The notes under the pieces were generated by a model. The model was not told the DNA's origin and made no database searches. It was given only the letters and a program-made list of their open reading frames with translations. This document shows, one piece after another, positions 6,103 to 31,835 of a stretch of DNA of 41,029 nucleotides (its first letter is position 1; each line of letters starts with the position of its first letter). The translations under genes and the position numbers were made by a program. The DNA is from a virus, in the IMG/VR virus record IMGVR_UViG_3300009008_003203, positions 1 through 41,029 of that record. One strand, given 5' to 3'.

Positions 6103-6947
6103 AACCACTATTACAGACCATAATTTTTTCAAAAAATCGAGCATTTCAATTACATGCATTGCTGTCTTCTATGAGATTGAAGGTAAAGACCTTGAAGCCG
6201 TTCATTCATACGGCAATATTGTGGTCAGCTGATGGTGCTCATAAGGATCAATATTCCGAATTAATTCAAATGTATCCTGAATTTGAGTGGATTGAAGAGA
6301 CGTCATTTCGTGATCAAGTAATTCAGAAATTAGATGGCTCGAAAGCAAAAAGATGCATGTTTCTTGTGGACGATATTATTTTTACAAGAGAAGTAGACTT
6401 AGTTGACGCAGTGCAGCTGTGGGATGCTAATGAAGGAGGAGCATATCGCGTCGCTGTATCATTAAGGTTGGGAATACACTTAACGAGGTGTTATGCACTG
6501 GATTGTGAGCAAGTTCACCCAAACACTGGACGCATTGTCGGGCCCTGGTTCGTCTGGAATTGGAAAGATGCGCACTCAAAGGGAGATTGGAGTTATCCGT
6601 TTTCACTAGACGGTCATATCTTCTCTACTGGAAAACTACGAAGCTGGATCGATCATTTAGACTTTGGGAACCCCAACGAAATGGAGTCAGAGATGGCTTC
6701 AAAGATTCCAATGACATTTAACGTTTCACAAAGTATGCTTTGTTATGTGCATGCGCCTCTTTTTAATATGCCGCTTAATCGTGTTCAGGACCAATTTAAG
6801 AATCGATGTGAAGAAATATCTGTCCAAGAATTATTTGAACATTTTCATAATGGCGATGAGCTAGATTTAGATCGATATGATAACATTCTCAATACAGGAT
6901 GTCATTTTCCAATGCCTGTTTATTTGAGAAAGAGGAAGATAGATTGA
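6099..6947 (+). CDS. Probable GT-A-fold glycosyltransferase
   Basis: I place the start at GTG 6099, inside a GTGA overlap with the stop of the previous gene, because an AGGAG lies 4 bp before it; a TTG 18 bp upstream lacks such a site. The 282-residue product opens with a GT-A-like strand (LLQTIIFSKNRAFQL) and later has a FLVDD motif around residues 88-92, consistent with a DxD-type site. The middle has many aromatic residues (WFVWNWKD), perhaps the acceptor site. It matches no family I can name firmly; assignment rests on the fold-like motif order and on being surrounded by glycosyltransferases. No signal peptide or transmembrane segment is seen. Confidence 0.6.
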   Translation: MKPLLQTIIFSKNRAFQLHALLSSMRLKVKTLKPFIHTAILWSADGAHKDQYSELIQMYPEFEWIEETSFRDQVIQKLDGSKAKRCMFLVDDIIFTREVDLVDAVQLWDANEGGAYRVAVSLRLGIHLTRCYALDCEQVHPNTGRIVGPWFVWNWKDAHSKGDWSYPFSLDGHIFSTGKLRSWIDHLDFGNPNEMESEMASKIPMTFNVSQSMLCYVHAPLFNMPLNRVQDQFKNRCEEISVQELFEHFHNGDELDLDRYDNILNTGCHFPMPVYLRKRKID

Positions 6948-7771
6948 TGAAAAGAAAAGAATTAAAAATCGGTATACTGTCAGTCGCTACTGGAAAGTAT
7001 ATAGATTTTCTAGAACCACTTTATGAGTCTATAGAGCATAGATTTTTAAGCGGTTATAAAAAGACATATTTCGTTTTTACCGATAACCCTAAAGCTGTTC
7101 AAACAATCGCTGCAAATGTTGGAGTTGATGCGCTATCTATCCCTATCGAACGTCAAGGATTTCCTGGCGACACTTTATTACGATATAACTACTTTTCTAG
7201 ACTCCCGGCAGCCTTAGCAGAAGTAGGTTCCGAACCTCCTGATGTGCTTTTTTATTTAGACGCTGACATGTTAGTCTTTTTCCCCGTCGGACCTGAAGTG
7301 CTTCCAGTCCCACCGCACTCTGAGCTTGTGGCTACTTCACATCCCGGATATTACAACCACAGAACACCTACTCATCCGCTGGGTGATCCAGATCAAAATC
7401 CCAAAAGTAGAGCCTATATTCGATCATACGAAGCTGGTGGCGATCATCGTCGTCGAAAAAGAATATGCTATCTTGCAGGTGGATTTAACGGTGGTACCTA
7501 TTCAGCTTTCATGAAGATGTGTGAAGTTTTATCTAAACAAATTGCAGATGACTTAGCAGATGGTGTGATGGCAAGATGGCATGATGAGTCGCATTTGAAT
7601 GAGTACTGTAGCAGATATTACATTTTTGAGCGCTTGAAAATTTTGACACCCGAGTACTGTTTTGATCAAAAAGATATGGAGATAGATGGTAACGATATTC
7701 GAATCAAGGGAGTACAGTACGCTCCACGAATAGTTGCACTAGATAAAGACCATAACAAGGTTAGGAGCTGA
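6947..7771 (+). CDS. GT6-family (ABO / alpha-1,3-galactosyltransferase type) glycosyltransferase
   Basis: The 274-residue product carries the GT6 signatures in order: DVLFYLDADM with an intact DxD (D105-A-D107), SHPGYY, a Ser-x-AYI segment, CYLAGGFNGGTY, RWHDESHLN (H212-DESH216) and LTPEYCFD. GT6 enzymes are retaining transferases that add Gal or GalNAc alpha-1,3 to a galactoside; the vertebrate A/B transferases need a fucosylated acceptor. Vertebrate enzymes use DxD, while many bacterial members have NxN, so the DxD form here is notable; a cyanophage GT6 with DxD is known to me from the literature. It lacks the N-terminal membrane anchor of animal enzymes and is soluble. The start is ATG 6947 in a TGATG overlap with an AGAGGA upstream, rather than an earlier in-frame ATG at 6899. 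Actual sugar and acceptor are not determinable. Confidence 0.88.
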   Translation: MKRKELKIGILSVATGKYIDFLEPLYESIEHRFLSGYKKTYFVFTDNPKAVQTIAANVGVDALSIPIERQGFPGDTLLRYNYFSRLPAALAEVGSEPPDVLFYLDADMLVFFPVGPEVLPVPPHSELVATSHPGYYNHRTPTHPLGDPDQNPKSRAYIRSYEAGGDHRRRKRICYLAGGFNGGTYSAFMKMCEVLSKQIADDLADGVMARWHDESHLNEYCSRYYIFERLKILTPEYCFDQKDMEIDGNDIRIKGVQYAPRIVALDKDHNKVRS

Positions 7772-7775
7772 CATA

Positions 7776-8624
7776 ATGACAAATATACCAAGGGTTTCTG
7801 TTTTAATACCCCTGCATAACTGCGAAAAAACTGTATTTCGTGCGATCGACTCTGTTCTGCAACAAACATATACTGACTTTGAGGTGGTATGTGTACTAAA
7901 TAATTGCTCTGATGCAACGGAAGATATACTACGAGATATCCAAGATGAGCGCATAAAGATCGTTTATCAAAATAAGTTGAAAGGAATTACGCCAACATTA
8001 AATCATGGATTTAGACATTGCCTCGGCGAATTTATCGCGCGCCAAGACGGTGATGATTATTGGTATCCAGAAAAGTTAAAAAAGCAAATGGATTATTTCG
8101 AGAGTAATCCAGAAGTTGATATTCTTGGAACACAAATTCGAATGGTGACGTCCGATGGTCAAGATTTTGTAAACAGAGATGCTGGATATGCTACGTCACA
8201 AAACAAATTGGTTACTTGGGATGCGGGAAATCCTGAGACAGATCAAGAAATTCGAGGGTTACTTTTGGAGGGTGACAATGTAATTGCTCATCCCAGCGTG
8301 GTTATGAGGGCAGTTGTATTAGACTGTGTTGGGGGTTATGATCCACTATACATAAGGGCGGAAGATTTGCACTTGTGGATGAAGGCATTACCCTTCTTTA
8401 CATTCGCAAATTTGCAAGAGGTTCTAGTTGACTATACGGTAAAGGAATCATCGAAAGAAGATTGGATGTGGGGTCAGGACTGGAAAATGGCTGAATGCTT
8501 AAAGCCCTTTATTCTGATATTAGAAGAGGAAGATTTACGTGCTGGTAAGTCACGGCGAGAATTTCTAAAATCTGTGGGAGCCAATCCACCAACACCTGTC
8601 CCTCCCCACAAGCCACTAAAGTAA
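7776..8624 (+). CDS. GT2-family glycosyltransferase (paralogue of 5341-6102)
   Basis: A 282-residue GT-A enzyme with VSVLIPLHNCE at the N-terminus, a TYTDFEVV strand, and the acidic metal site ARQDGDDYW (D91-G-D-D94). HPSVVMR, AEDLHLWMKA and FANLQEVLVDYT match the same strings in the enzyme at 5341-6102, so these genes are duplicates separated by two unrelated transferases. An extra stretch of roughly 20 residues (around residues 130-155) and a Pro-rich C-terminus distinguish it. An AGGAG ribosome-binding site ends about 10 bp before the ATG. Specificity is unknown; divergence around the acceptor half suggests a different acceptor from the paralogue. Confidence 0.85.
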   Translation: MTNIPRVSVLIPLHNCEKTVFRAIDSVLQQTYTDFEVVCVLNNCSDATEDILRDIQDERIKIVYQNKLKGITPTLNHGFRHCLGEFIARQDGDDYWYPEKLKKQMDYFESNPEVDILGTQIRMVTSDGQDFVNRDAGYATSQNKLVTWDAGNPETDQEIRGLLLEGDNVIAHPSVVMRAVVLDCVGGYDPLYIRAEDLHLWMKALPFFTFANLQEVLVDYTVKESSKEDWMWGQDWKMAECLKPFILILEEEDLRAGKSRREFLKSVGANPPTPVPPHKPLK

Positions 8625-8637
8625 CTTTGGAGAAAAA

Positions 8638-9348
8638 ATGTTCACTATTCTTCTACCAGTTTTTAATGGTGAGCGCTGGATTATTGAGGCGATACAAAAC
8701 TTAAAAGACCAGGTTTATACGGATTTTGAAGTCATTATAGTATGCAACGGTTGCACAGATCGATCCGCTAGTTTTGCATCAAGTCAGATAGCAGAAGATA
8801 AAAGGTTTAGATTAGTAGACACAAAATTTGCGAATAAATCATCCGCACTAAATATTGGGGTAATGATGGCGTCACGAGAGTGGATAGCAATATATGATGT
8901 TGATGACCGCTGGCATATAGAAAAACTAGATTATCAAGCCAGAGAGATATTATCTTCTTCTTCCTTGGAAGTTTTGGGAACACAAATGTTTTATCTGACA
9001 GAAGATAATGAAGTACAACCTGAGGGTCCCCTTTTGCCGCTGTCTCATGAAGATATAATGAGCTATTTGCTGGAAAGAAAAAGCAATCCATTTTGCAATA
9101 GCAGTATTACGTATCGAAGAGATTTGCATTTCACTAGAGTGGGATTTTATGATCCGCAATGTGCTGTAGAAGATTATGACTTTTGGATTCGATGCGCACT
9201 TGCTGGTACTCATTTTAAAAATTTGGCCGGGTTTTTAGCATTTCATAGGCTTCATTCTGGATCACATTTTAACGGATCAAATAAGCAACGCAACGATAAA
9301 GTTTTTTTAGATAGTATGATGGAGCATAGAAGAAAGGGAGCCGAGTAA
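8638..9348 (+). CDS. GT2-family glycosyltransferase
   Basis: A 236-residue GT-A enzyme: FTILLPVFNGERW at the N-terminus, VYTDFEVIIVCNGCTD as the nucleotide-binding strand, IYDVDDRW with D87-V-D89 as the metal site, and VEDYDFWIRCA as the catalytic ED motif. It is related to the two other GT2 genes in this cluster but more distant. GGAG lies 7-10 bp before the ATG. There are no membrane helices. Its place directly after a paralogue suggests a tandem duplication followed by divergence. Donor and acceptor are unknown. Confidence 0.83.
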   Translation: MFTILLPVFNGERWIIEAIQNLKDQVYTDFEVIIVCNGCTDRSASFASSQIAEDKRFRLVDTKFANKSSALNIGVMMASREWIAIYDVDDRWHIEKLDYQAREILSSSSLEVLGTQMFYLTEDNEVQPEGPLLPLSHEDIMSYLLERKSNPFCNSSITYRRDLHFTRVGFYDPQCAVEDYDFWIRCALAGTHFKNLAGFLAFHRLHSGSHFNGSNKQRNDKVFLDSMMEHRRKGAE

Positions 9349-9353
9349 TTGAT

Positions 9354-10211
9354 ATGGTAGAAGAATTTTGTAAAAAATATGGTGTCTCAAAAGACGATGT
9401 GGTTTGGATAGATTTACAAGACACAGACTTATCAAAGCTTAAAGCTCTTAGTGAGAGCTTAATAGCGGTCAAATATGTTAGGATAACAAAGCCATCGATT
9501 AATCAAGAATTGCTTAATGACATAAACAATCATTTGACAAATTATTTTTGTTTCCGACGGGTTGACGGTCCAAATGATCAAGACATCGTTTACGAAAATA
9601 AATTTCATACTGATCCGGTTTGGCCTGGGATTGATGTTTCTGGATATGAGAACACTTACATAAGAGGAAAACCGAAAGAATATTTACTCCACACAATAAG
9701 CCTGTTTAAGCAATTTACAAAGGCTCGTACAATTCTTGAAATCGGATCCGTACGAGCCGTGATGGAGCATACTATTGACGAATTTAATCCCGCATGTTGC
9801 AACGATGGTCATTCTACATATTTTTGGAGTCATTATACAGGTGCTGAAGTACACACCGTTGACAACCATCCCCATAGAAAGAGAAATATTATGGATGTTG
9901 ATGCTAGACTTTCAAGCGTCTTTGCGCACACTGCCGATGGCATAGAATTTATAAAGAATTTTGACCAAGAGATCGATTTGCTCTTTTTGGATGCATGGGA
10001 TGTGATACCCGATACACCATACGCCGAAAGACATTTAGAAGCTTATATCGCTTCGAAACAAAAATTAGCAGCAAGCTGCTTAGTGCTTATCGACGATACA
10101 GACGTCGGTGGCGGCGGTAAGGGTAGACTAGTCATTCCAGAACTTAAGAAAGATGGGTTTCAATGCATAGCGAATAGAAGACAAACAATCTTTTTGAGGA
10201 CAGCGCAGTGA
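9354..10211 (+). CDS. Class I SAM-dependent methyltransferase-like protein
   Basis: The 285-residue protein has an N-terminal segment of ~100 residues of unknown type followed by a Rossmann-like methyltransferase domain. The motif I strand is ILEIGSVRAVME near residues 125-136, in which the usual glycine-rich loop is reduced to one glycine. A second acidic strand (EVHTVDNHP) fits the ribose-binding position, and LLFLDAWDVIPDTPYAERHLEAY near residues 205-230 resembles the methyltransferase 24 group. LVLIDDTDVGGGGKG follows. It sits among glycosyltransferases, so a glycan methyl transfer is plausible, but the incomplete motif I leaves activity uncertain. AAAGGGAG lies about 13 bp before the ATG, rather far. 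Confidence 0.65.
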   Translation: MVEEFCKKYGVSKDDVVWIDLQDTDLSKLKALSESLIAVKYVRITKPSINQELLNDINNHLTNYFCFRRVDGPNDQDIVYENKFHTDPVWPGIDVSGYENTYIRGKPKEYLLHTISLFKQFTKARTILEIGSVRAVMEHTIDEFNPACCNDGHSTYFWSHYTGAEVHTVDNHPHRKRNIMDVDARLSSVFAHTADGIEFIKNFDQEIDLLFLDAWDVIPDTPYAERHLEAYIASKQKLAASCLVLIDDTDVGGGGKGRLVIPELKKDGFQCIANRRQTIFLRTAQ

Positions 10212-11131
10212 CACGTATAGTATTGATAAACACACCAACTCTTCCTTGTCCAGATACACATTATTTACATGTTAAGAAATTTCTAAAAGGGTTTGTTCAA
10301 AACGGCTTTCCGCTTATTGAGGTTAATAATAAAAGAGAAATTGATGCCTTAACTCATGACGACATTGTATACATCTCCAATCATGGGTTCGAACCATGGG
10401 CTGGTGTAAGTCGCGAAGATCTACCAATACAAAATGCTTTAAAGCAAATGGAGCTTCTGGAGAAGAAATGTCATTATGCGATATTGTGGCATTTTCATCA
10501 AGCGTTGTTCAGATTTTTTTATGAGCCGCAATTTAAGAACGTTATTTTAACCGGCCACTGGCGTGGGTCATGGGCTGATGAAGAATATTTCGATTTTTCA
10601 TTTACACCGTATAGTCAATTGGAGAATTTTGTTCCTATGAGATTTGCTACTGACCTTCATCCCTCTGAAATTGAGGATCCGCTTGACAAGGTTTATGACG
10701 CATGCTTTATTGGGACTCCATATAAGATACCGTGGATTCAAGAAATTGCCGGTCGCCACAATGTATATGCTCATTTTGGTAAACCGTGGTTACCAGAAGC
10801 AGATAGGCTTCGTGTTCTAAGAACTTCTACAATTGGTCTGGGCTTTGGTGCCGACCAGAATGTGAAGGAGGGTGTAATGACTGAAAGAGTTATTGAAAGC
10901 ATTGCTCATGGGTGTGTTGTGATAAGTGATTGCGCCACTGCACCAGAAAGAACCGGTGGCGCAGCAATTTATGTCGAAAGCAAGCAACACGCTCTTGAAG
11001 AAGTAAAACGGATTTTACATTCACCTGAGTTCGCTAGAGAAAAAATGCACCTCGGCCTTGAGTTTGTTAGAAATGAGGGCACCTATTTTCATCTTGCAAA
11101 AGATATGCTTGATGCACTGAATATCACATAA
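10208..11131 (+). CDS. GT-B glycosyltransferase (GT1/GT4, CgeB-like)
   Basis: The start is GTG 10208 within a GTGA overlap with the upstream stop; GAGGA lies 7 bp before it. The 307-residue protein has an N-terminal strand (IVLINTPTLP) and a C-terminal half with the sugar-nucleotide-binding pattern GVMTERVIESIAHGCVVISD near residues 223-240, followed by a GGAAIYVES strand. This C-terminal pattern resembles the CgeB-like glycosyltransferase group, where the conserved Glu contacts the donor ribose. There is no signal peptide. It closes the first tight block of glycosyltransferase genes; a 64 bp leader follows. Substrate unknown. Confidence 0.7.
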   Translation: MTRIVLINTPTLPCPDTHYLHVKKFLKGFVQNGFPLIEVNNKREIDALTHDDIVYISNHGFEPWAGVSREDLPIQNALKQMELLEKKCHYAILWHFHQALFRFFYEPQFKNVILTGHWRGSWADEEYFDFSFTPYSQLENFVPMRFATDLHPSEIEDPLDKVYDACFIGTPYKIPWIQEIAGRHNVYAHFGKPWLPEADRLRVLRTSTIGLGFGADQNVKEGVMTERVIESIAHGCVVISDCATAPERTGGAAIYVESKQHALEEVKRILHSPEFAREKMHLGLEFVRNEGTYFHLAKDMLDALNIT

Positions 11132-11969: not shown

Positions 11970-12368
11970 ATGAACGTTGATAGTCAAAAAAGGATATTCA
12001 CTAACGGTTGTTTCGATGTTTTACATCGAGGTCATATTGAGCTTTTAAAATATTGTAAAACTTTGGGGTATGTGATTGTGGGATTGAATAGTGATAAAAG
12101 CGTTAAGAGGCTAAAGGGTGACAATAGGCCATTCTTCTCTCAAGATGATAGAAAATTTATACTAGAGTCTTGTCGGTTCGTGGATGAGGTACGTATCTTT
12201 GAGGATGACACACCGCTCAGAATGATAAAAGCCTTGAGGCCAGATATGATTGTGAAAGGTGCAGATTATATGCCCCAAGAAGTGGCTGGTCATGAAATTT
12301 GTGAAGTTAGAATATTCCAAATTTTAGATGGATATTCCACAACAAATATTTTGGAAAAAATACAATGA
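11970..12368 (+). CDS. rfaE2: D-beta-D-heptose 1-phosphate adenylyltransferase (HldE C-terminal domain type)
   Basis: A 132-residue nucleotidyltransferase with TNGCFDVLHRGHIELL, the H19-x-G-H22 ATP-binding site of the class. The strings LKGDNRP, EDDTPLRMIKALRPDMIVKGADY, EVAG and GYSTTNILEKI match the heptose-specific adenylyltransferases rather than glycerol-phosphate or ethanolamine-phosphate cytidylyltransferases. The reaction is D-glycero-beta-D-manno-heptose 1-phosphate plus ATP to the ADP-heptose. In many bacteria this domain is fused to the kinase; here the kinase is a separate gene at 16750. It is coupled to the next gene by an ATGA overlap. Length is normal for the stand-alone domain. 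Confidence 0.87.
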   Translation: MNVDSQKRIFTNGCFDVLHRGHIELLKYCKTLGYVIVGLNSDKSVKRLKGDNRPFFSQDDRKFILESCRFVDEVRIFEDDTPLRMIKALRPDMIVKGADYMPQEVAGHEICEVRIFQILDGYSTTNILEKIQ

Positions 12369-12685
12369 TATATGTGTTCGATATAGACGGCACCATTTGT
12401 GAAAATTCTAATAGCGAATATCAAAATTCTATACCGAAATTAAATCGTATTGAAAGAGTAAATAAGCTTTATGATGAAGGACACACAATAATATTTCAAA
12501 CTGCAAGGGGAATGGGTCGAAGTGGGAACTCCTCAGCGTATGCTTACAAAGCATTTTATGAATTTACTAAAAACCAACTTGATTCTTGGGGAGTGAAGTA
12601 TCACTCATTGTTCTTAGGAAAGCCAGCAGGAGACACATACATCGATGATAAGGGAATTAGAGATGAAGACTTCTTTACCGATTAA
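12365..12685 (+). CDS. Minimal HAD-superfamily phosphatase
   Basis: A 106-residue HAD protein without a cap domain. Motif I is FDIDGT with nucleophile D6 and acid D8; T46 in FQTARG gives motif II; K86 in LGKPAGD and D94/D95 in YIDDKG give motifs III and IV. The pathway position between the adenylyltransferase and sugar enzymes suggests a sugar-phosphate phosphatase, possibly taking the GmhB role of removing the 7-phosphate from heptose bisphosphate. Against that, GmhB proteins are longer (~190 residues) with a zinc loop that is absent here. Similar small HAD proteins occur in capsule/LPS loci. The start is the A of an ATGA overlap. Confidence 0.75.
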   Translation: MIYVFDIDGTICENSNSEYQNSIPKLNRIERVNKLYDEGHTIIFQTARGMGRSGNSSAYAYKAFYEFTKNQLDSWGVKYHSLFLGKPAGDTYIDDKGIRDEDFFTD

Positions 12686-13022
12686 ATTCGTTCCGAAGGG
12701 ATGGGGATTTGAGAAGTGGATTGTTAATTGCGAAGAGTATTGCGGAAAACTTCTTTATTTTGTGAAGGGTAAACGCTGTTCATGGCACTATCATAAACTG
12801 AAAGATGAGGTGTTCTATGTGCAATCTGGAAAGATTTTGGTAAAATACTCAGAGGAAGATGATATCGAAAATGTTGGGGTAATAACACTCGGCCCAGGAG
12901 ATAACTTCCATGTTTATCGTGGGCTTAGACATCAGATGATCGCTCTTGAAGATACTGAGCTTTTTGAATTCTCAACGCAACATTTCGATGAGGATAGTCA
13001 TAGGCTTCAAAAGGGAGACTAA
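12663..13022 (+). CDS. Single-domain cupin, probable sugar-biosynthesis protein
   Basis: A 119-residue cupin. I use ATG 12663, which has AGGGA about 8 bp upstream and overlaps the HAD gene by 23 bp, instead of the ATG at 12645. The metal-binding pattern is clear: H42-x-H44-x4-E49 in SWHYHKLKDE, with a second histidine in GLRHQMIAL forming cupin motif 2. An opening PKGWGFEKWIVN is typical of cupins found beside phosphomannose isomerase or LPS genes. It could be an isomerase, an epimerase or a binding protein; the sequence does not decide. Neighbours on both sides handle sugar phosphates or nucleotide sugars. Confidence 0.75.
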   Translation: MKTSLPIKFVPKGWGFEKWIVNCEEYCGKLLYFVKGKRCSWHYHKLKDEVFYVQSGKILVKYSEEDDIENVGVITLGPGDNFHVYRGLRHQMIALEDTELFEFSTQHFDEDSHRLQKGD

Positions 13023-13025
13023 TAT

Positions 13026-13682
13026 ATGCGCACAAAGAGAGTACTTATAACAGGATCTTCACGAGGTCTTGGAAAGCATTTAGCGACCCAATTTGAGATG
13101 GCTGGATGTGGCGTTTTTAGACACGCAAGGATGGATGATTCAGGATACGATATTACTGGAGACATCACAAGTGACAATTTTTATGATTTGTTAGAAAGTT
13201 TTATCAGAGATAATCACATTAGTATCTTTGTAAATAATGCAGCGATCCATGAGCCGAAAGCATTTTTAGAGTATAGCGAAAATGATATTCGTATTGTGTT
13301 GGTAACAAATCTAGTTTCTCAAATTCTTATGATACAACGAGTGTATAAAGTCTTTAAAGAACGAGGTTCCGGAATAGTCGTTAACATTAATTCTTTGGCA
13401 GGCCGGAATCCATCATCAAATGAAACAATTTATTGTGCAAGCAAATACGGTCTTCGTGGATTTTCCGAATCACTCCAGATTGAATCTATTGGTAAGAACA
13501 TAAAGATTTTAGATTTTTATCCTGGCGCAATGAAAACAGACATGTGCAAAAATAGAGAAAATTATGATAGCTTAATGGATCCCCATGAGGTGGCTGAAAT
13601 AATATGCGACACCGTTTTACGTAATGATACCACTATTTTACCCACTGAGACAATTATAAGAAAATTTTTATCAAAGGACTAA
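13026..13682 (+). CDS. Short-chain dehydrogenase/reductase
   Basis: A 218-residue classical SDR. The cofactor motif TGSSRGLG lies near residues 9-16, NNAA near residue 74, the catalytic serine in NINSLAG, and the active-site YxxxK as YCASK near residues 136-140. The Gly-rich motif with an Arg suggests NADP(H), though this is not certain. The substrate is unknown; the zinc dehydrogenase 9 bp downstream may act on the same intermediate. No ribosome-binding site stands out beyond GGGAG about 9 bp before the ATG. Confidence 0.85.
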   Translation: MRTKRVLITGSSRGLGKHLATQFEMAGCGVFRHARMDDSGYDITGDITSDNFYDLLESFIRDNHISIFVNNAAIHEPKAFLEYSENDIRIVLVTNLVSQILMIQRVYKVFKERGSGIVVNINSLAGRNPSSNETIYCASKYGLRGFSESLQIESIGKNIKILDFYPGAMKTDMCKNRENYDSLMDPHEVAEIICDTVLRNDTTILPTETIIRKFLSKD

Positions 13683-13691
13683 AGCAAGATT

Positions 13692-14702
13692 ATGAAAGCA
13701 GCAATTTTAGAAGAAATTAATGGACCACTAGCCATTAAAGAAGTCGAGCTAACCTCGTTAAAGCCGGGGCAGGTTTTGGTAAAGATCTTAGTTAGTGGGT
13801 TATGTGGCGCTCAATTACATGAAATCCGTGGTCATAAAGGTAATGCAAAGTTTCTTCCCCACTTAATGGGTCATGAGGGCTGTGGAATCGTACAAGAAGT
13901 GGGCACCGGAGTCATGACTGTTGCACCTGGGGATAAGGTTGTAATGCATTGGAGACCTGGTACAGGAATGGAGGCGCCATTTCCAGAATATATTTTGAAT
14001 GGTAAAAAGATAAGCAGCGGAAAAGTGACAACACTTAGCGAATATTCTATAGTCTCAGAAAACAGGGTGACGACAGTTCCGGCAGATACTCCAAATAATC
14101 TTTGCGCGCTTCTGGGTTGCGGATTGACAACAGCATTAGGAATTATCGATAATGAAATAGATCTTAAAATGGGCGAAAGCGTGATGGTTATTGGCTGTGG
14201 TGGTGTAGGGCTGAACTTAATACAAGGCGCAAAAATGAAGAGCGCATTTCCAATCGTAGCAATTGATCAATCCGAGTATAAAAGACAAAAAGCTTTAGAG
14301 GCAGGAGCTAGCCTCTTTATTAATACTGCAACCGAGGAGTCCCAACCTAACGAGATTGATGTGATAATCGACACCACGGGAAATGTCAACGTAATCGCAG
14401 ATGCGATAGGGCGCCTGTCTAAGAATGGCAGAATGATTTTAGTAGGTCAACCTTCTCCTAACGAAGAATTGACGATCCCTAATGGTATCACATTATTCGG
14501 TGGTTCTGGAAAGTCTATAAAAGCGAGTCAGGGTGGAAGGACCGAGCCAGCTATGGACATCCCGCGATATATCAAGATGTATCGAGCTGGAATTTTAGAC
14601 ATTGATAAAATTGTAACCCATACGTTTTCACTTGAAGACGTGAATGAAGCGTTTGACTTGTTAAAGACAGGCACCGCTGGTAGAATAATGGTAAAGATGT
14701 GA
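13692..14702 (+). CDS. Zinc-type (MDR) alcohol/polyol dehydrogenase lacking the structural-zinc lobe
   Basis: A 336-residue medium-chain dehydrogenase. Catalytic zinc ligands are C38 (SGLCGAQ) and H61-E62 (GHEGCG), with a further cysteine near residue 148 (LGCGLTT); the Rossmann motif is VIGCGGVGLN. The loop that in most family members holds four cysteines for a second, structural zinc (here about residues 90-115) has none, so the enzyme probably binds only one zinc. It oxidises or reduces an alcohol/ketone, likely a sugar or polyol derivative given the context. The gene lies between an SDR and a methyltransferase and ends in an overlap with the next start. Confidence 0.85.
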   Translation: MKAAILEEINGPLAIKEVELTSLKPGQVLVKILVSGLCGAQLHEIRGHKGNAKFLPHLMGHEGCGIVQEVGTGVMTVAPGDKVVMHWRPGTGMEAPFPEYILNGKKISSGKVTTLSEYSIVSENRVTTVPADTPNNLCALLGCGLTTALGIIDNEIDLKMGESVMVIGCGGVGLNLIQGAKMKSAFPIVAIDQSEYKRQKALEAGASLFINTATEESQPNEIDVIIDTTGNVNVIADAIGRLSKNGRMILVGQPSPNEELTIPNGITLFGGSGKSIKASQGGRTEPAMDIPRYIKMYRAGILDIDKIVTHTFSLEDVNEAFDLLKTGTAGRIMVKM

Positions 14703-15535
14703 AGAAGACTATCTATCAATTCTTAAAAGAAATTCAAGTCTATGATTGCGAATTCCAGAAGGTCAGAATAGGTAATGAGTCAGATGGAGGCTATGTTGCG
14801 CTACATGAAGTGTGTGATAAAACCCGAACGCTTTATTCTTTTGGTGTCGAAGATAACATCACTTTTGAACAAGACTTCGTCCGGCGATATCCCCAGGCGC
14901 TCGTAAAACTATTTGATCATACAGTGGATGGATTGCCGTCTAATCATCCCAATTTTGCTTTTGTAAAGAAAGGTATCGCCGCCACCCCCTCCAAAAACTT
15001 CGTTGCACTTTCTAGCATATTAGACGAAGAATGTACAGGTATAACTTTAAAGATGGATATTGAGTGGGATGAATGGAGTGTTTTGGGTTCGTTAAGTTCT
15101 GATCAGCTAAAAAAAATAGACCAAATGCTGGTCGAATTTCACTTAGTCACTGTAGATGTTGATAACAAATTTATAGCAAATACAGACCCTGAATATAGGC
15201 TAACGCCTTATTTCGATTCATTTTATAGAGCGACTTATGACAAAGTTAATGATGCTCTTTTTATGACATACCTTAATACAATGAAGAAAATTAATGAATG
15301 GTTTTACGCTTTTCATATTCATCCCAATAATTCGCTAAAGAAGGTTAAGACCGGTGGATATAGTTTTCCACCACTTTTAGAAATAAGCTTTGTAAGAAAA
15401 GACTTGGTAAAAAATATTAGGGCTACTACGTGTAATTTTCCTATTTCTGGTTTAGATTTTCCAAATAAGCCCTACAAGAAGGAAATTAAGAATTATTATC
15501 CACTAGCTCAAGAGGAAAAAGGAGAAAAATGCTGA
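14699..15535 (+). CDS. FkbM/METTL24-like methyltransferase family protein
   Basis: The 278-residue product starts at GTG 14699 in a GTGA overlap and has no strong ribosome-binding site, so it is probably translationally coupled. Near residues 22-35 it has VRIGNESDGGYV and then LYSFGVEDNITFEQDF and LFDHTVDG, the arrangement typical of the METTL24/FkbM-related group in which GGY and FG-V shape the SAM pocket. MDIEWDEW in the middle fits the acidic motif of the family. Likely an O-methyltransferase acting on a glycan or sugar precursor; substrate unknown. A GGAGAAAA just before its stop serves the next gene. Confidence 0.65.
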   Translation: MKKTIYQFLKEIQVYDCEFQKVRIGNESDGGYVALHEVCDKTRTLYSFGVEDNITFEQDFVRRYPQALVKLFDHTVDGLPSNHPNFAFVKKGIAATPSKNFVALSSILDEECTGITLKMDIEWDEWSVLGSLSSDQLKKIDQMLVEFHLVTVDVDNKFIANTDPEYRLTPYFDSFYRATYDKVNDALFMTYLNTMKKINEWFYAFHIHPNNSLKKVKTGGYSFPPLLEISFVRKDLVKNIRATTCNFPISGLDFPNKPYKKEIKNYYPLAQEEKGEKC

Positions 15536-16266
15536 ATAACAGGTCAAAACAAATCAGGAGGGACACCATTACTTTATCAAAGGCCAATGGTGGTTATCAT
15601 TATGGGGGTTGCTTTTCAGCAGTAGAGTTACTCGTTTCCTTGTACGATCATATCTTAACCGATGATGATAGATTTATATTAAGTAAGGGTCATGGCTGCT
15701 GGCCATATTACGTTTTGCTTAGGGAGCGTGGGTATGACCCTAGACCTACCGGCCATCCAGAACGTGATGTGCATAATGGAATTCACTGGACAACAGGTAG
15801 CGAAGGACACGGATTTCCAGCTGCCATTGGAATGGCAATAGCAAAGAAAATGTTAAAAAAGTCTGGAAAGATTTACGTTATTATTGGTGATGGAGAATGC
15901 CAGGAGGGCACAACTTGGGAATCTCTTTTACTGGCTGCACATCACAAGCTTGATAATCTAGTTATTATCGCTGACTGGAATGGTATTCAGGGCTCAGGGT
16001 ATACAAAAGATATTTTACCCATCCCAAACTTCGACCAGATTGCTGAGGCAATCGGGTGGTCAACGTCAGTCATCGATGGGCATTCATATGAAGAAATTTT
16101 AGGTGCCCTGGCTATCTATAAAAAAGAAACGCCACGTCTTATTATTGCAAATACGATAAAGGGTAAGGGGGTGAGCTATATGGAAAATCAGCCTTGCTGG
16201 CATGCTCAATGGCCGCCACCAGACAAAGAAGAACAAGCGCTTAAAGAGCTGGAGGATTCAGAGTAA
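15529..16266 (+). CDS. Transketolase, N-terminal (thiamine-diphosphate PP-domain) subunit
   Basis: A 245-residue PP domain of transketolase. The hallmark thiamine-diphosphate motif begins with GDGECQEG near residue 120 and ends at ADWNG near N151. SKGHGCWPYY, TGSEGHGFPAAIGMA and NTIKGKGVSYME are conserved transketolase strings. The enzyme moves two-carbon units between ketoses and aldoses, which yields sedoheptulose 7-phosphate, the entry compound for ADP-heptose synthesis. The partner subunit follows with a 1 bp overlap (TAATG). Split transketolases occur in several bacterial surface-sugar loci. Whether the product is sedoheptulose 7-phosphate or another ketose is inferred only from neighbours. 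Confidence 0.88.
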   Translation: MLNNRSKQIRRDTITLSKANGGYHYGGCFSAVELLVSLYDHILTDDDRFILSKGHGCWPYYVLLRERGYDPRPTGHPERDVHNGIHWTTGSEGHGFPAAIGMAIAKKMLKKSGKIYVIIGDGECQEGTTWESLLLAAHHKLDNLVIIADWNGIQGSGYTKDILPIPNFDQIAEAIGWSTSVIDGHSYEEILGALAIYKKETPRLIIANTIKGKGVSYMENQPCWHAQWPPPDKEEQALKELEDSE

Positions 16267-16748
16267 TGAGACGTGCATTTGGAAAGACGATTGTTAGGAT
16301 CGCTGAAAAAGATGACAGAGTTATTTTAATATCTGGTGATGTTGAACAATGCATGGAGGAATTTCAAGAGCGCTGGCCTGAAAGGTATATTAATGCCGGG
16401 TTATGCGAGCAATCGATGATCAGTATGGCAGCGGGGATGGCAGCAGAGGGATTGAGACCAATCGTTTATTCAATCACACCATTTTTGATTGAGCGCCCAT
16501 TTGAGCAGATCAAAATTGATATCGATGAGCAGAAATTACCTGTTATGCTTGTAGGACAAGCTGATTACCCCACCCATGGTCCAACACATCGTCCACTAAA
16601 CGCTGAAGGTCTAATCGCCTTATTTAAGAATACGACTGGATACTTCCCCAAGTCTCAGCAAGAGACAGAAAAAGCAATGATTGATGCTTATTTGATGGGT
16701 GAACCAGCGATTATCTGTCTTAAGCGCGACGGTTTACCGTTTTTCTAA
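16266..16748 (+). CDS. Transketolase, C-terminal subunit reduced to the pyrimidine-binding domain
   Basis: A 160-residue Pyr domain. NAGLCEQSMISMAAGMA carries the invariant glutamate (E48) that activates thiamine diphosphate, and DYPTHGPTHRP matches the transketolase histidine-containing loop. Usual C-terminal subunits have ~300 residues because they include the third (transketolase_C) domain; that domain is absent here and does not continue in any frame, since the next gene starts 1 bp later. The third domain is not part of the active site, so activity with the upstream subunit is plausible. The gene overlaps its partner by 1 bp, giving balanced expression. Confidence 0.85.
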   Translation: MRRAFGKTIVRIAEKDDRVILISGDVEQCMEEFQERWPERYINAGLCEQSMISMAAGMAAEGLRPIVYSITPFLIERPFEQIKIDIDEQKLPVMLVGQADYPTHGPTHRPLNAEGLIALFKNTTGYFPKSQQETEKAMIDAYLMGEPAIICLKRDGLPFF

Positions 16749-16749
16749 G

Positions 16750-17481
16750 ATGAAAGAGGTTTTAGTTATAGGTGATAGCTGCAAAGATGTATTTGTGTAT
16801 TGCAGCGCAAATAGGCTGTGCCCTGATGTTCCTGTTCCTGTTTTAAATGAGAAATATCGTACATCGAATCCTGGGATGGCTGCGAATGTGCATAGAAACA
16901 TTCTGGCTTTAGGTGTTGAGTGCGATTTGCTCACCAATCAGAATTGGGAAGATTTTTCTAAAATCAGGTATGTTCATGATGAAAGTAATCATATGTTTTT
17001 TCGAGCCGACTCTTTACCCCGCATAAAACCATTCGATACAAGTAAGATTTGCTATGATTACCATTTGATAATTGTATCAGATTATGATAAGGGATTTTTA
17101 TCTAAATCTGATATAAGGACAATTTGTTCCCATCACGATAACGTATTTATTGATTCAAAAAAAATTCTGGGGTCTTGGGCGCATGATGCAAGATACATCA
17201 AGATTAATCACACTGAGTATCACCGCTCAAAGGACCATATTGATAAATTTTTAGTTGATAAGATTATTCGAACAGAGGGTCCGCGGGGATGTGTGTACCA
17301 AGATGAAATATACCCTGTTAAAAAAGCTGAAATTAAAGACGTTTCTGGCGCTGGAGACAGTTTTCTAGCGTCGTTGGTTGTGAAGTATTTAGAGAATAGT
17401 GACATAATAGAAAGCATTAAATTTGCAAACAAGTGTGCTTCTGAGGTTGTTACAAGAAGAGGAATTTCAATAATCCAGTGA
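16750..17481 (+). CDS. rfaE1: PfkB-family sugar kinase, HldE N-terminal (heptose 7-phosphate kinase) type
   Basis: I start at ATG 16750, 1 bp after the transketolase stop; an upstream in-frame ATG would lie inside the transketolase gene. The 243-residue product has GDSCKDVFVY and RLCPDVPVPVLN, matching the GD-x3-D-x-Y and E/C-PVPV pattern of HldE kinases, an NPGMAANV segment in place of PGGAANV, VSDYDKGFL, and the catalytic DVSGAGDSF near residues 195-203. It would phosphorylate D-glycero-D-manno-heptose 7-phosphate at C1. It is shorter than usual HldE kinase domains (~315), with losses in the middle. The matching adenylyltransferase is at 11970, so the two halves are unlinked genes here. Confidence 0.8.
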   Translation: MKEVLVIGDSCKDVFVYCSANRLCPDVPVPVLNEKYRTSNPGMAANVHRNILALGVECDLLTNQNWEDFSKIRYVHDESNHMFFRADSLPRIKPFDTSKICYDYHLIIVSDYDKGFLSKSDIRTICSHHDNVFIDSKKILGSWAHDARYIKINHTEYHRSKDHIDKFLVDKIIRTEGPRGCVYQDEIYPVKKAEIKDVSGAGDSFLASLVVKYLENSDIIESIKFANKCASEVVTRRGISIIQ

Positions 17482-18287
17482 AAATATTAGTAACAGGTGC
17501 AAATGGATTTATAGGCAAAAACATGGTAGCTGCTTTGTGTCAGCATGAAGTAGTATGTCTGGATGATGATCATTTGGATAATACCCAATGGAAGAATCTC
17601 TGGTCAACACTTTTAAAAGATAACACTTTAGACGCAGTCTTTCATATCGGCGCATGCTCAGACACATTAGAGCAGAATGTCAATTTTATGATGCAACGTA
17701 ATTATGAGACGACAAAGTTTCTTGTTGATTGGTGTGTTGAAAACAATATACCCATGATTTATTCTTCTTCTGCTGCAAACTACGGCGCAAATAATGATCA
17801 TCCATCCAATTTGTACGGATGGAGTAAGTACGTAGCAGAAGACTATGTTGTGAGTAATTCAGGTATAGCATTACGATATTTCAACGTGTATGGCCCCGGC
17901 GAAGAGCGTAAGGGTAGGATGGCGTCTGTAGCTTATCAAATGTGTACAAGAGATCAAAGCAATCTTGAGTGTAAGTTATTTCCAGACTCTCCGCGGAGAG
18001 ACTTTGTATACGTAAAAGATGTCGTCTCTGCGAATATTCATGCTTATGAAAATTATGAAGCGCTTCAAGGTAAATATTATGATGTAGGAAGTGGCCAAGC
18101 AAGGGCCTTTGAAGAAGTTCTTGACTTGCTGGAGATCAAGTATTCTTATCATTCTTCTGATGCGATCCCAGAAGGTTATCAGTTTTTTACTCGTAGCAAT
18201 AAAGAGAGGTGGTTACCGGGGTGGGAGCCAAGATATCAGCTTGAGGAAGGGATATCAGATTATCGAAAAGTTTTGGAGACTAGATGA
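17478..18287 (+). CDS. hldD: ADP-L-glycero-D-manno-heptose 6-epimerase (HldD type)
   Basis: A 269-residue extended SDR starting at GTG in a GTGA overlap. TGANGFIGKN is the NAD(P) loop; FHIGACSDTLEQNVNFMMQRNY is the characteristic HldD string, followed by SSSAANYG, the catalytic YGWSK, RYFNVYGPGEERKGRMASVA and RRDFVYVKDV. The enzyme epimerises C6 of ADP-D-glycero-D-manno-heptose, the last step to the LPS-core donor. It is ~40 residues shorter than the E. coli protein, mostly through loops. The following gene is coupled by an ATGA overlap. Together with the kinase and adenylyltransferase, it forms most of an ADP-heptose pathway. Confidence 0.88.
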   Translation: MKILVTGANGFIGKNMVAALCQHEVVCLDDDHLDNTQWKNLWSTLLKDNTLDAVFHIGACSDTLEQNVNFMMQRNYETTKFLVDWCVENNIPMIYSSSAANYGANNDHPSNLYGWSKYVAEDYVVSNSGIALRYFNVYGPGEERKGRMASVAYQMCTRDQSNLECKLFPDSPRRDFVYVKDVVSANIHAYENYEALQGKYYDVGSGQARAFEEVLDLLEIKYSYHSSDAIPEGYQFFTRSNKERWLPGWEPRYQLEEGISDYRKVLETR

Positions 18288-19216
18288 AAATCCTCGTCAC
18301 AGGCGGAACCGGAATGGTTGGGTCTGCTTTTAGAAATCTAAAAACCGACCATGAATTGGTTCTATATGGGTCAGAACAATACGACTTGAGAGACGATCAG
18401 CAGGTTGATGATATGTTTTATCGCAATCAAGTTGATGCAGTTATTCATTTGGCTGCAAAAGTAGGTGGTGTGAAGGGGAATATGGATTTCATGGCAGACT
18501 TCTATTCTGATAACATTAAGATAAACACCAATGTTCTAGATTCAGCACACAGTCATGGGGTCAAAAAAGTTGTTTCATTGTTATCAACATGCGTTTATCC
18601 AGACGCCGTTTCATACCCCTTGACAGAAGAACAAGTGCACCAGGGCGAACCGCATTACAGTAATTTCGGCTATGCGTACGCAAAAAGGATGCTAGACGTA
18701 CACTCCAGGGCTCTTCGTAAACAATATGGGTGTAACTTCATCTGTGCTATACCAAATAATCTATATGGCCCTCATGATAATTTTGATTTAGAGAACGGTC
18801 ATGTAATTCCCGCAATAATCAGGAAAGTGTGGGAAGCAAAGCTTACTAAGACAGCCCCAGTGTTTTGGGGAGACGGATCCCCGCTACGTGAATTTACGTA
18901 CGCACCCGATGTTGCCAGGATCTTACTTTACCTTTTAGAAAAGTATGATAGCTCGGTGCCCATTAATATTGGGATGACGAATGAGCAGAGTATAAGCAGT
19001 ATAGTAGATCTAGTGTGTAAAGAGCTAGATGTTAGCACCTCCATTATTTGGGATCGATCAAAGCCCGCTGGACAATTTAGGAAACCAAGCTCAAACAAGA
19101 ACCTATTGAAGCTTGGATGGGAAGAAAGCGAGTATACTTCGTTGGAGTCTGGAATAAAGCAAATGTGTGAATGGTTCTCTACAAATTATCCCAATATAAG
19201 AGGTATGAATAAATGA
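18284..19216 (+). CDS. fcl: GDP-L-fucose synthase
   Basis: A 310-residue extended SDR with [11 protein letters not shown], the family-specific [18 protein letters not shown] (catalytic cysteine near residue 102), YAYAKRM (YxxxK near residues 129-133) and [25 protein letters not shown], whose histidine completes the epimerase pair. [11 protein letters not shown] is also diagnostic. It converts GDP-4-keto-6-deoxy-mannose to GDP-L-fucose with NADPH. Its length is normal. It is coupled to HldD upstream and to Gmd downstream by ATGA overlaps, so the fucose and heptose branches are made from the same message. Confidence 0.92.
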
Positions 19217-20259
19217 AAACAGCAATGATAACAGGCGTAACTGGCCAAGATGGGTCGTATCTCGCAGAGCTTTTGTTAAGCAAAGGATATAGGGTCATTG
19301 GTCTAAAAAGACGGACAAGCTTAATAACAACCGACCGTGTAAATGCGATTTATAATAATCCCAATTTTGAACTACGCTATTATTCTCTTCACGATCCTTC
19401 AACCCTATATCGCCTATTAGAAGAATATGAGCCAACTGAATTTTATAATCTTGCTGCTCAATCTCATGTGCGGGTTTCTTTCGACGTACCAATCGAGACC
19501 GTGGATACAATCGCAATGGGTACCCTTCGTGTTCTAGAAGCTATTAGACATGTCAATAAAGACATAAGAATATACCAGGCTTCCTCTTCAGAGATGTTCG
19601 GTGATAACCCTCAAGCTCCACAGGATGAGAAAACTATTTTAATGCCGGCGTCCCCATACGCTTGTGCTAAAGTTTTTGCGCATAATCTGTGCAGAAACTA
19701 TCGTGAATCCTATGATATGCATATTTCATGTGGAATATTGTTTAATCATGAATCCCCAAGAAGAGGTGAGACGTTCGTAACACGTAAAATTACTAGGGCC
19801 GCTGCGCGTATAAAAATGGGGCTTCAAGAAAAGCTATATCTTGGTAACCTTGAAGCAAAGAGAGACTGGGGTTTCGCTGGAGACTTCGTAGAAGCTATGT
19901 GGCTCATGATGCAACAAGACCAACCAGACGATTATGTTATAGCTACTGGAGAAACACACTCAGTACAAGAATGGCTAGACTGTGTTTTCTGTGTAGCGTC
20001 TCTACCACAAGCCGGGAACGTTGAAATCGATCAAAGGCTTTTTCGACCTCATGAGGTACCATTGCTGTTGGGTGACCCATCAAAGGCGTTGAAGGAACTT
20101 GGGTGGAAACCAACAATAAGATTCAATGAATTAGCTAAAATGATGTATAATGCAGATAAGATTTTCGCAGAGGGTGAGCTTCGATTGCTCGGCCGAGATT
20201 TAAAGATTGAAGCGCTTATTGATGGTCGAAAAATGCCCTATCAATCTTCAAAGAAATAG
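19213..20259 (+). CDS. gmd: GDP-mannose 4,6-dehydratase
   Basis: A 348-residue extended SDR with [43 protein letters not shown] (catalytic YxxxK) and [17 protein letters not shown], all diagnostic for Gmd. It makes GDP-4-keto-6-deoxy-mannose from GDP-mannose, the substrate of the synthase encoded just upstream. No mannose-1-phosphate guanylyltransferase is seen in the window, so GDP-mannose should come from the host. Length matches the family. The ATG lies within the stop of the upstream gene. It ends the sugar-enzyme cassette; a 48 bp gap follows. Confidence 0.93.
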
Positions 20260-30284: not shown

Positions 30285-31835
30285 ATGTTTTACATCGTAA
30301 CAGCTAGTTCAGACACTTATATTACAAACAAGATTATAGACAATAACTTTAGAGCGACCGACGCTAACGTAGGAAGAGCCGCAACGTTAGACCTCTTTAA
30401 ACTATACGACGAGTCGGTCTATACATCGGGATCTACGAGGGTTACTTCATCTGTCAGCGAGCTATCGAGAATATTAGTTAAATTTAATTACGACACAATC
30501 CAGACACTAGCAAGCTCATCGCTAGATTTTACTCATTCGAGTTTCAAGGCAGTACTGGAATTAAATGAAATACAAACTGGTGCTCCGGTTCCACGAGATT
30601 TCTGGGTCGTTTCTTATCCGCTAGCGCAGCAGTTCAATGAAGGCTCCGGCCGGGATACATCACGCTTTACTGACGTCGACGCTGCAAACTACACAACTGC
30701 CTCATATTCATCTGGGACACCTGTATTATGGAACACGAGCGGGTCTAACAAAGGTGGATACCTGGGAGACTCTGGGGTCGATTTTATTCTTAGCGGTGCC
30801 ATTGGATCGTCAGTGGTTGATTTTGGAGCCTCTCAATATTTTAAAGAAGGTCCTGGGAAGATCTCTCTTGATGTCACGAATGTAGTGTCTTGTTCACTAG
30901 CCAGCTCAATTCCTAATTTCGGTTTCAGGATAACTTTTAGTGGCTCGTATGACACTGATACAAAGACACGGTTTGCTAAACGTTTTGCATCTAGACATGT
31001 AAGAAATAAGTTGCTATCTCCACGTCTTCTCATTACGTGGAATAATACGATGAAAGATTCACACCTTAATTTCGTATTTAACTCATCTGCTAGTTTATTT
31101 TTACGAAATACCATTGGTGGCACGTCAACCAACCTAAGGTCTGGTTCGGCATTGACTGAGCTGAGTGGTGAAGACTGCATTTTATTAACGCTGGTCAGCG
31201 GCTCGGGTGCTACTGCTTCGTATACATTTATTACTGCATCTCAGCATACTGGCTCCGCCACAAGCGCCGGTATGCCGGGAGTGTACTCTGCTTCATTCGC
31301 GTTGAACCAATTTGATTCATCATTTTTTAAGACGATGAAAGGTAATAATGAACTTACATTTACTGAAATATGGTCATCGCTTGATCGTACTATCGGATAT
31401 ATGACGGGATCGTTAACCGTTAAAAAAACAGCTGTGGCATCTAACGCGTTTGTGAATAGAAAGCTTTTATTCACCGCGACCAATGCATTGCCTGAGTATA
31501 AGCAATATTCTCGTGTTACGATGAGGTTATTTGTAGAAGATGTTGAAGCGCAACGTAAGACAAAGGCGTACAAGCTTCCTCGAGAACTTGAAACGATAAT
31601 TGTTGACAAAGTGTATTACAGGATTCGTGATATCGAGTCTGGCACCATTATGGTTCCCTTCGATGAGATACGTGATTCCACCAGAGTAGCTGTTGATTCT
31701 GCCGGGATGTATATAGACTTTCGTACTTCTGGATTGCCCCACAACAGAAATTACACTATTGACCTACTCGTAAAAGATAGAAACATCTCTGAAATTGTTG
31801 AGCTTAATAACGTATCATTTATGGTTGTTTCTTAA
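30285..31835 (+). CDS. Virion structural protein, possible wedge component
   Basis: A 516-residue Ser/Thr-rich beta protein. The first ~140 residues (ASSDTYITNKI, NVGRAATLDLF, SRILVKFNYDT, then FWVVSYPLAQQFNEGSG) resemble DNRLRE/CBM96-like jelly-roll domains, which bind carbohydrate in other proteins. The C-terminal part ends with LPHNRNYTIDLLVKDRNISEIVELN. Where T4 has gp7 and gp8 after gp6, this gene occupies a similar position, so it could be a gp8-like wedge protein, but I see no direct sequence match. It ends in a 1 bp overlap (TAATG) with the next gene. Confidence 0.65.
   Translation: MFYIVTASSDTYITNKIIDNNFRATDANVGRAATLDLFKLYDESVYTSGSTRVTSSVSELSRILVKFNYDTIQTLASSSLDFTHSSFKAVLELNEIQTGAPVPRDFWVVSYPLAQQFNEGSGRDTSRFTDVDAANYTTASYSSGTPVLWNTSGSNKGGYLGDSGVDFILSGAIGSSVVDFGASQYFKEGPGKISLDVTNVVSCSLASSIPNFGFRITFSGSYDTDTKTRFAKRFASRHVRNKLLSPRLLITWNNTMKDSHLNFVFNSSASLFLRNTIGGTSTNLRSGSALTELSGEDCILLTLVSGSGATASYTFITASQHTGSATSAGMPGVYSASFALNQFDSSFFKTMKGNNELTFTEIWSSLDRTIGYMTGSLTVKKTAVASNAFVNRKLLFTATNALPEYKQYSRVTMRLFVEDVEAQRKTKAYKLPRELETIIVDKVYYRIRDIESGTIMVPFDEIRDSTRVAVDSAGMYIDFRTSGLPHNRNYTIDLLVKDRNISEIVELNNVSFMVVS

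Follow-up and report, generated by a model that had tools for sequence, protein, structure and literature searches.

A viral gene cassette encoding a probable route to ADP-activated manno-heptose with a cupin in place of GmhA

Introduction

The bacterial pathway to ADP-L-glycero-beta-D-manno-heptose runs through GmhA, HldE, GmhB and HldD, and related genes are also known from phages. Cyanophages P-SSM2, S-SM2 and S-SSM7 carry lipopolysaccharide (LPS) clusters (T4-GC 304-308), of which T4-GC 304, 305, 307 and 308 co-occur in all three, with their function left open in the accessible part of the report (PMC3037559), and heptose genes are listed for phage SynMITS9220M01 in the part available of another (PMC7378029). 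Here we analyse a cassette of overlapping or tightly spaced open reading frames (ORFs; 11970-18287) in the virus record IMGVR_UViG_3300009008_003203 from IMG/VR, the whole of which, 41,029 bases, is hereafter called the window; its virus is another, uncharacterised, carrier of such a cluster. A preliminary description of this DNA found it surprising that a phage should make an LPS core sugar; the surprise is smaller than was made out there, as cyanophage heptose and LPS genes have already been published (PMC3037559, PMC7378029). A role for the cupin discussed below was not found in the literature searched: in searches by title, with partial coverage of subscription journals, nothing describing a heptose isomerase of the cupin type came up, and for ADP-heptose in archaea none was on point.

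By best match, the kinase, the adenylyltransferase and the epimerase of the window fall into the same families as the bacterial enzymes. The cassette differs from the bacterial pathway in that HldE is split into two short genes, a HAD phosphatase of another subfamily is present for GmhB, and a cupin is present for GmhA. Caulobacter phage Cr30 and SynMITS9220M01 likewise bear heptose genes, but there a SIS-type GmhA match adjoins the annotated heptose kinase or lies one small gene away from it, and we take these kinase and GmhA pairs to belong to the GDP-heptose branch.

We propose, with a probability of roughly two in three, that the cassette specifies a complete, compact route to ADP-activated manno-heptose in which the cupin replaces GmhA. 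What is observed is homology with retained residues, gene sets that are conserved, fusions in archaea, mutual exclusion of cupin and GmhA, and low pN/pS; the activities of all the enzymes, the sugar they make and the purpose it serves are inferred. The cupin (12645-13022) would isomerise sedoheptulose 7-phosphate (S7P) from the host pentose-phosphate pathway, giving D-glycero-D-manno-heptose 7-phosphate, to which the short HldE-type kinase (16750-17481) would add the 1-phosphate; the small HAD protein (12365-12685) would take off the 7-phosphate in GmhB's stead, the HldE-C type enzyme (11970-12368) would form ADP-heptose, and the HldD-type enzyme (17478-18287) would epimerise C6. Neighbouring glycosyltransferases may then place the heptose on a host envelope glycan or on the virion.

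The cassette and its recognised enzymes

The genes of the cassette, with E-values of their family matches, are as follows (loci and genomes from our scans carry L and G numbers).

11970-12368, plus strand: HldE-C type sugar-1-phosphate adenylyltransferase (hereafter NT); TIGR02199, 8.9e-44; phrog_7878, 2.4e-35
12365-12685, plus strand: small capless HAD phosphatase; TIGR01689, 5.8e-12; phrog_1238
12645-13022, plus strand: cupin of 125 amino acids; Cupin_2, 4.5e-9; inner ATG at 12663
13026-13682, plus strand: short-chain dehydrogenase; PF00106, 9.9e-33
13692-14702, plus strand: zinc alcohol dehydrogenase (ADH); PF08240 and PF00107, each 2.9e-15, and synteny
14699-15535, plus strand: 278-amino-acid protein between ADH and transketolase; homologues in L008 and L024, no family match in Pfam, NCBIfam or PHROGs
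15529-16266, plus strand: transketolase N-domain protein, binding thiamine pyrophosphate (TPP); PF00456, 3.8e-27
16266-16748, plus strand: transketolase pyrimidine-domain protein (TKP); PF02779, 1.9e-22; LCEQSM context
16750-17481, plus strand: short HldE-N/HldA type kinase; TIGR02198, 1.9e-31
17478-18287, plus strand: HldD-type epimerase, short form; TIGR02197, 4.4e-62

All of these ORFs are intact as placed in the preliminary description, and its calls of an HldE-type adenylyltransferase, a HAD phosphatase, an HldE-type kinase and an HldD epimerase agree with the best NCBIfam matches. These are rfaE_dom_II (TIGR02199) for the NT, at 148.8 bits against an equivalog cut-off of 181.5; rfaE_dom_I (TIGR02198) for the kinase, at 109.4 against an equivalog cut-off of 345; TIGR02197 for the epimerase, at 210.1 against 274.6; and the capsule HAD phosphatase family TIGR01689 for the HAD protein, at 45.7 against 162. 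With the kinase and the NT both closest to heptose families and their catalytic motifs kept, the earlier assignment to ADP-heptose withstood the comparison. Reading of the sequences identified the motifs HxGH, NSDxSVKRLKG, VKGADY and STT in the NT, and DxDGT, TAR, GKP and DD in the HAD protein. The latter, for which TIGR01689 ranks first and no match to TIGR00213 (GmhB) was obtained at E 0.1, is proposed as a putative heptose-1,7-bisphosphate 7-phosphatase, with the role of GmhB in a different subfamily.

The kinase ORF opens with a GTG at 16699, and homology runs from the ATG at 16750 onward. Its SGAGD residues are invariant in 26 sequences, and the PfkB GAGD and flanking motifs that it has in common with HldA are invariant in a 52-row alignment and were aligned with 4e84. 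The predicted structure (predicted local distance difference test score, pLDDT, 92.1) is nearest to the heptose-7-phosphate kinase HldA from B. cenocepacia (6.3e-17), of which seven chains score 6e-17 to 4e-16, the next protein following at 8e-13. The epimerase matches solved HldD (PDB 1eq2) at 1.1e-36, and Tyr140, Lys144 and Lys178, presumably the catalytic residues of HldD, align to identical residues.

Between the window and its close relative L008, pN/pS is 0.14-0.27 in eight genes, the HAD gene lying outside the comparison. This ratio was used since synonymous sites were saturated, leaving dN/dS missing for eight of nine genes; that for the TKP is 0.07.

The cupin as candidate heptose isomerase

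The preliminary description called the pathway near-complete, with only GmhA not seen. The absence of GmhA stands, as its SIS domain (PF13580) has no match in the window record, whereas the gap at the isomerase step does not: the cupin very likely stands in for GmhA, and the pathway is therefore probably complete. The cupin gene overlaps the 3' end of the HAD gene. It falls within the interval of that description, where it was overlooked.

Profile comparison of the cupin with the PDB returned the D-lyxose isomerase of B. subtilis (6.8e-7, 92 of 121 positions) and the D-lyxose/D-mannose isomerase of Thermofilum (1.8e-6, 98 of 121). The structural model (pLDDT 95.5) has the Thermofilum D-lyxose isomerase as its top Foldseek match (1.7e-8). 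With the D-lyxose/D-mannose ketol-isomerases (2y0o, 7nzo) the phage cupin has in common the fold, the HxH metal motif and the residues N..YC.K and K.ETF, all of these motifs being found in 2y0o, at an identity of only about 23-25%. D-lyxose/D-mannose isomerases are longer proteins that act on free sugars, and they interconvert a ketose and a C2 manno-type aldose, which is the chemistry of the step from S7P to heptose 7-phosphate. The window cupin gave no match to PF07385 (D-lyxose isomerase) at E 0.01, and its homologue in S-SM2 scores 18.7 bits, below the cut-off of 20.8. Lys35, His50, Lys53, Glu55, His96 and Glu108 do not vary among the 95 sequences of the viral class, six of which come from contigs binned into metagenome-assembled genomes (MAGs), or among the 10 archaeal fused cupins compared; His48 is kept in 93 of the 95 and again in all 10.

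Absence of GmhA and mislabelled genes

PF13580 is likewise without a match in all 49 other kinase-carrying records, four of which are isolated cyanophages deposited as complete genomes. Nor did it exceed the cut-off in any of the 50 records, out of 80 cupin-scan viral loci, taken for this test, in one of which (G125) a weak match of 24.3 bits was seen. A search of 50,697 phage records with one real GmhA gave matches in 13, some of which are evidently bacterial. In the records of S-SM2, P-TIM68, P-SSM2 and S-CAM3, it is the HAD gene that is labelled phosphoheptose isomerase; five phage HAD proteins tested, including that of the window, match phrog_1238, which carries the same label, and for three of them compared with NCBIfam TIGR01689 is the best though weak match (45.7, 21.6 and 35.2 bits). 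An equation of cyanophage GC306 with GmhA was considered and rejected, as GC306 is the HAD gene in the records examined. The cupin family corresponds to phrog_7851, labelled 'cysteine dioxygenase'.

Linkage of the genes in viral loci

The scans took the best 80 of 202 matches for the NT and the best 80 of at least 579 for the cupin, so that sampling leans to close relatives; many viral loci end at contig ends, and presence and absence were counted within the locus stretch. Collapsing replicates with identical kinase, cupin or NT sequences left 59 of 80 NT loci, 70-71 of 80 cupin loci and 24-25 of 45 kinase loci. Among the 59 distinct NT loci, 55 have the kinase, 52 the cupin and 51 both, while 41 have the HAD gene, 10 a GDP-mannose 4,6-dehydratase (GMD) gene and eight the transketolase pair; GmhA was seen in none of them. 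The 70 distinct cupin loci include 56 with NT, 53 with the kinase and 61 with the HAD gene. Distant SIS proteins occur in two of these (L140:19317-19904 and L170:5386-6054), both lacking NT and kinase. Twelve of 25 distinct kinases in the kinase scan are accompanied by both NT and cupin, none by NT alone, one by the cupin alone and 12 by neither; the Fisher p of 2.7e-6 for co-occurrence of NT and cupin is descriptive only, as the sequences are related.

Cyanophages S-SM2, P-TIM68, P-SSM2 and S-CAM3 all carry NT, kinase, HAD, cupin and epimerase genes. SynMITS9220M01 (L181, MT408532.1) has a separate kinase-cupin-NT-epimerase run, and a second sugar module with annotated heptose kinase, phosphoheptose isomerase and epimerase genes.

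Many related viral loci have ADH close to the kinase. A number of them (L013, L016, L017, L018, L029-L032, L047 and L050) combine ADH with an HldE-like kinase and have no NT, HAD or cupin gene within the locus; among ADH-kinase loci, a split transketolase is present too in L018, L019 and L050. This pairing gives the same kinase a second genomic association, as yet unexplained.

Cupins in cellular genomes and archaeal fusions

A scan of genome contigs yielded 46 cupin loci. Judged by reading, seven of these (L051-L055, L058 and L095) seem to be phage contigs that were placed in bacterial and archaeal MAGs, since they carry phage-type gene sets. In a Woesearchaeota MAG (L093), a kinase-cupin protein is followed by a GmhB-like gene, and another (L094) encodes GmhB, cupin and adenylyltransferase in one frame. 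In the archaeal order around L093, the cupin profile matches 34 of 103 genomes. The cupin is fused to the kinase in 11, forms the middle of a single GmhB-cupin-NT frame in one, and adjoins kinase and NT in three. The other 19 of the 34, many of them weak-scoring, were not counted as linked, the loci comprising about 1.5 kb on each side. None of the 15 genomes with a linked cupin has a SIS frame of GmhA size, G082 and G216 giving weak matches where the frames are 583 and 600 amino acids long.

Seventeen archaeal genomes contain a TIGR02198 match of at least 300 bits; 12 of these have only the cupin, four only GmhA, one neither and none both (p 0.002, kinship not corrected for). Over all 103 genomes, 20 have a strong cupin match, 23 a GmhA-like SIS protein and one both (one-sided p 0.03, with hand-chosen cut-offs). 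GmhA directly adjoins a bifunctional HldE in three of the four genomes with GmhA only (L213, L214 and L215, of which L214 was family-checked). This is the distribution expected where one enzyme takes the place of another.

The operon L222 (genome G147) encodes HldD (278.4 bits, cut-off 274.6), the kinase-cupin protein (320.6, cut-off 345), GmhB (180.6, cut-off 149.6) and NT (154, cut-off 181.5), with a GT9-like gene, assigned by reading, after the NT; PF13580 has no match in this genome. In the kinase-cupin fusion operons (L222, L220 and L188), the same cupin family is joined to ADP-heptose enzymes. They differ from the phage cassette in being cellular and fused, with a phosphatase of GmhB type and a kinase of full length. 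A second kinase of the same family (L220:5180-6163) lies beside the kinase-cupin fusion and GmhB in one archaeal operon. A plasmid search with the archaeal fusion as query gave 103 records, with hldE among the five matches listed.

Transketolase pair, neighbouring genes and host

The preliminary description suggested that the split transketolase could supply S7P. The split pair itself is real, with PF00456 and PF02779 above gathering score and the GDG and Glu contexts retained. The supply is weakly supported, given that Transketolase_C (PF02780) has no match in the window or in two longer records with the same cassette, that the pair occurs in few NT loci, and that the gene after ADH in S-SM2 and P-TIM68 encodes a TPP protein resembling pyruvate dehydrogenase E1. 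Supply of S7P by the pair is possible, and another TPP reaction together with the dehydrogenases is as likely. The S-SM2 and P-TIM68 genes (L002:9984-11192 and L003:10850-11995), annotated 'transketolase central region', match both the alpha and the beta part of pyruvate dehydrogenase E1 within a single chain and sit where the window has the split transketolase.

The cassette is flanked by glycosyltransferase genes on one side and by glycosyltransferase, exonuclease and baseplate-type genes on the other. Features outside it include:

6899-11131, plus strand: upstream glycosyltransferases (one GT6, two GT2 and one GT1-like) and a possible methyltransferase
18284-20259, plus strand: NAD-dependent epimerase and GMD adjoining the cassette; PF01370, 2.8e-54, and PF16363, 2.7e-126

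The gene at 6899-7771 (PF03414, 2.8e-31) is a phage member of glycosyltransferase family 6, to which the ABO blood-group enzymes belong. The stretch 31835-38058 encodes two large proteins that carry laminin-G/concanavalin-like lectin domains (PF13385), the one at 35440-38058 being without a match among phages. As to the host, no psbA (PF00124) was detected in seven records, and the baseplate protein is 28.6-30.8% identical to its matches in six phage records (Microcystis phage Mel-JY01, Flavobacterium phages and an uncultured phage); the psbA, baseplate-protein and 35440-38058 protein searches did not identify a host. To our knowledge, the LPS of marine Synechococcus is without heptose.

Alternative explanations

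Several observations weigh against a complete heptose route with the cupin as isomerase. All four recognised enzymes, encoded by short, diverged genes, score below their family cut-offs, the kinase falls short of the TIGR02198 profile by about 70 residues, an epimerase-profile match of at least 110 bits occurs in only 21 of the 59 NT loci, and L008 has no HAD gene near its cupin. Quercetin dioxygenase is the top PDB profile match of the cupin by E-value (1.1e-7), but over 57 positions, and the comparisons fail to single out isomerases. The archaeal fused cupins form one clade, so that the fusion genomes are not independent observations, and the counts of GmhA absence are to be read with the completeness of the archaeal genomes not established. 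In the deltaproteobacterial MAG L075, cupin and NT occur together with a weakly HldE-like kinase, and what appears to be the same contig also carries two GmhA-like genes at distances of about 15 and 30 kb. The archaeal genome G153 combines a cupin (85.6 bits) with a SIS frame (50.6 bits, 291 amino acids), and weaker cupin matches (30-69 bits) co-occur with GmhA in G148, G160, G163, G164 and G172.

The cassette might lack an isomerase of its own, host GmhA providing heptose 7-phosphate, while the cupin serves in nucleotide-sugar 3/5-epimerisation of the CapF or RmlC kind or in sugar binding. CapF is indeed second in Foldseek in a near-tie (2.4e-8) and first by VIA-align (Z 15.7 vs 15.1). As many cupins tie by VIA-align, the fold cannot decide function, and we rejected fold similarity alone as strong evidence for an isomerase; nor is it decisive for this alternative. 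We regard it as unlikely, since archaea that keep the other pathway enzymes have the cupin and no GmhA, 11 genomes have the cupin fused to the first kinase of the pathway and one has it fused to GmhB and NT, and it matches ketol-isomerases across most of its length. Many other genomes have the cupin with no heptose genes close by, in some cases near GMD (by reading, at the MAG loci L066 and L071), and the family may thus have wider or other substrates, perhaps as phosphomannose-type isomerases. That the window cupin is a phosphomannose isomerase for the GDP-mannose/GDP-fucose genes, unlinked to the heptose genes, would fit these MAG loci, the GMD and epimerase at 18284-20259 and the similarity of solved archaeal phosphomannose isomerases. 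With GMD in only 10 of the 59 NT loci against 52 for the cupin, and the archaeal fusions being with heptose enzymes, we consider it improbable.

It is also doubtful that kinase, NT and epimerase act on a different sugar, for instance a TPP-enzyme-derived or branched one, and merely resemble heptose enzymes. The scores below cut-off would be compatible with this, as would the finding that among solved structures the NT is nearest to the 'putative cytidylyltransferase' 5x9q and then to cytidylyltransferases, a caveat on the heptose call, and that seven of the 25 distinct kinases accompany ADH without NT or cupin. Heptose families are, however, the best NCBIfam match for three separate enzymes, the HldD residues are kept, and the kinase model is nearest to HldA. 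Filler DNA for headful packaging, left as an open alternative for such genes in the available part of the cyanophage report (PMC3037559), is very improbable here: the ORFs are intact and overlapping, the low pN/pS weighs against this idea, and the gene set recurs across diverse viral loci. We thus favour the ADP-heptose route with the cupin in place of GmhA.

Implications

Two misleading labels can be corrected, phrog_1238 being matched by a HAD phosphatase (in five phage proteins) and phrog_7851 by a likely sugar isomerase. According to the portion of the source available, gmhA has served as a marker gene in work on marine viruses (PMC9238414); counts resting on labels of this kind would need checking.

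The phrog_7851 cupins probably constitute a second, unrelated class of S7P isomerase in cyanophages, other viruses and Woesearchaeota-type archaea. Such viruses would then be self-sufficient for the five steps to ADP-heptose, and some archaea would make ADP-heptose without GmhA. If true, the cupin assignment completes the viral pathway and predicts ADP-heptose synthesis in archaea that lack GmhA, and whether the recurrent cyanophage genes function, a matter left open in the accessible part of the earlier report (PMC3037559), reduces to a question about one enzyme.

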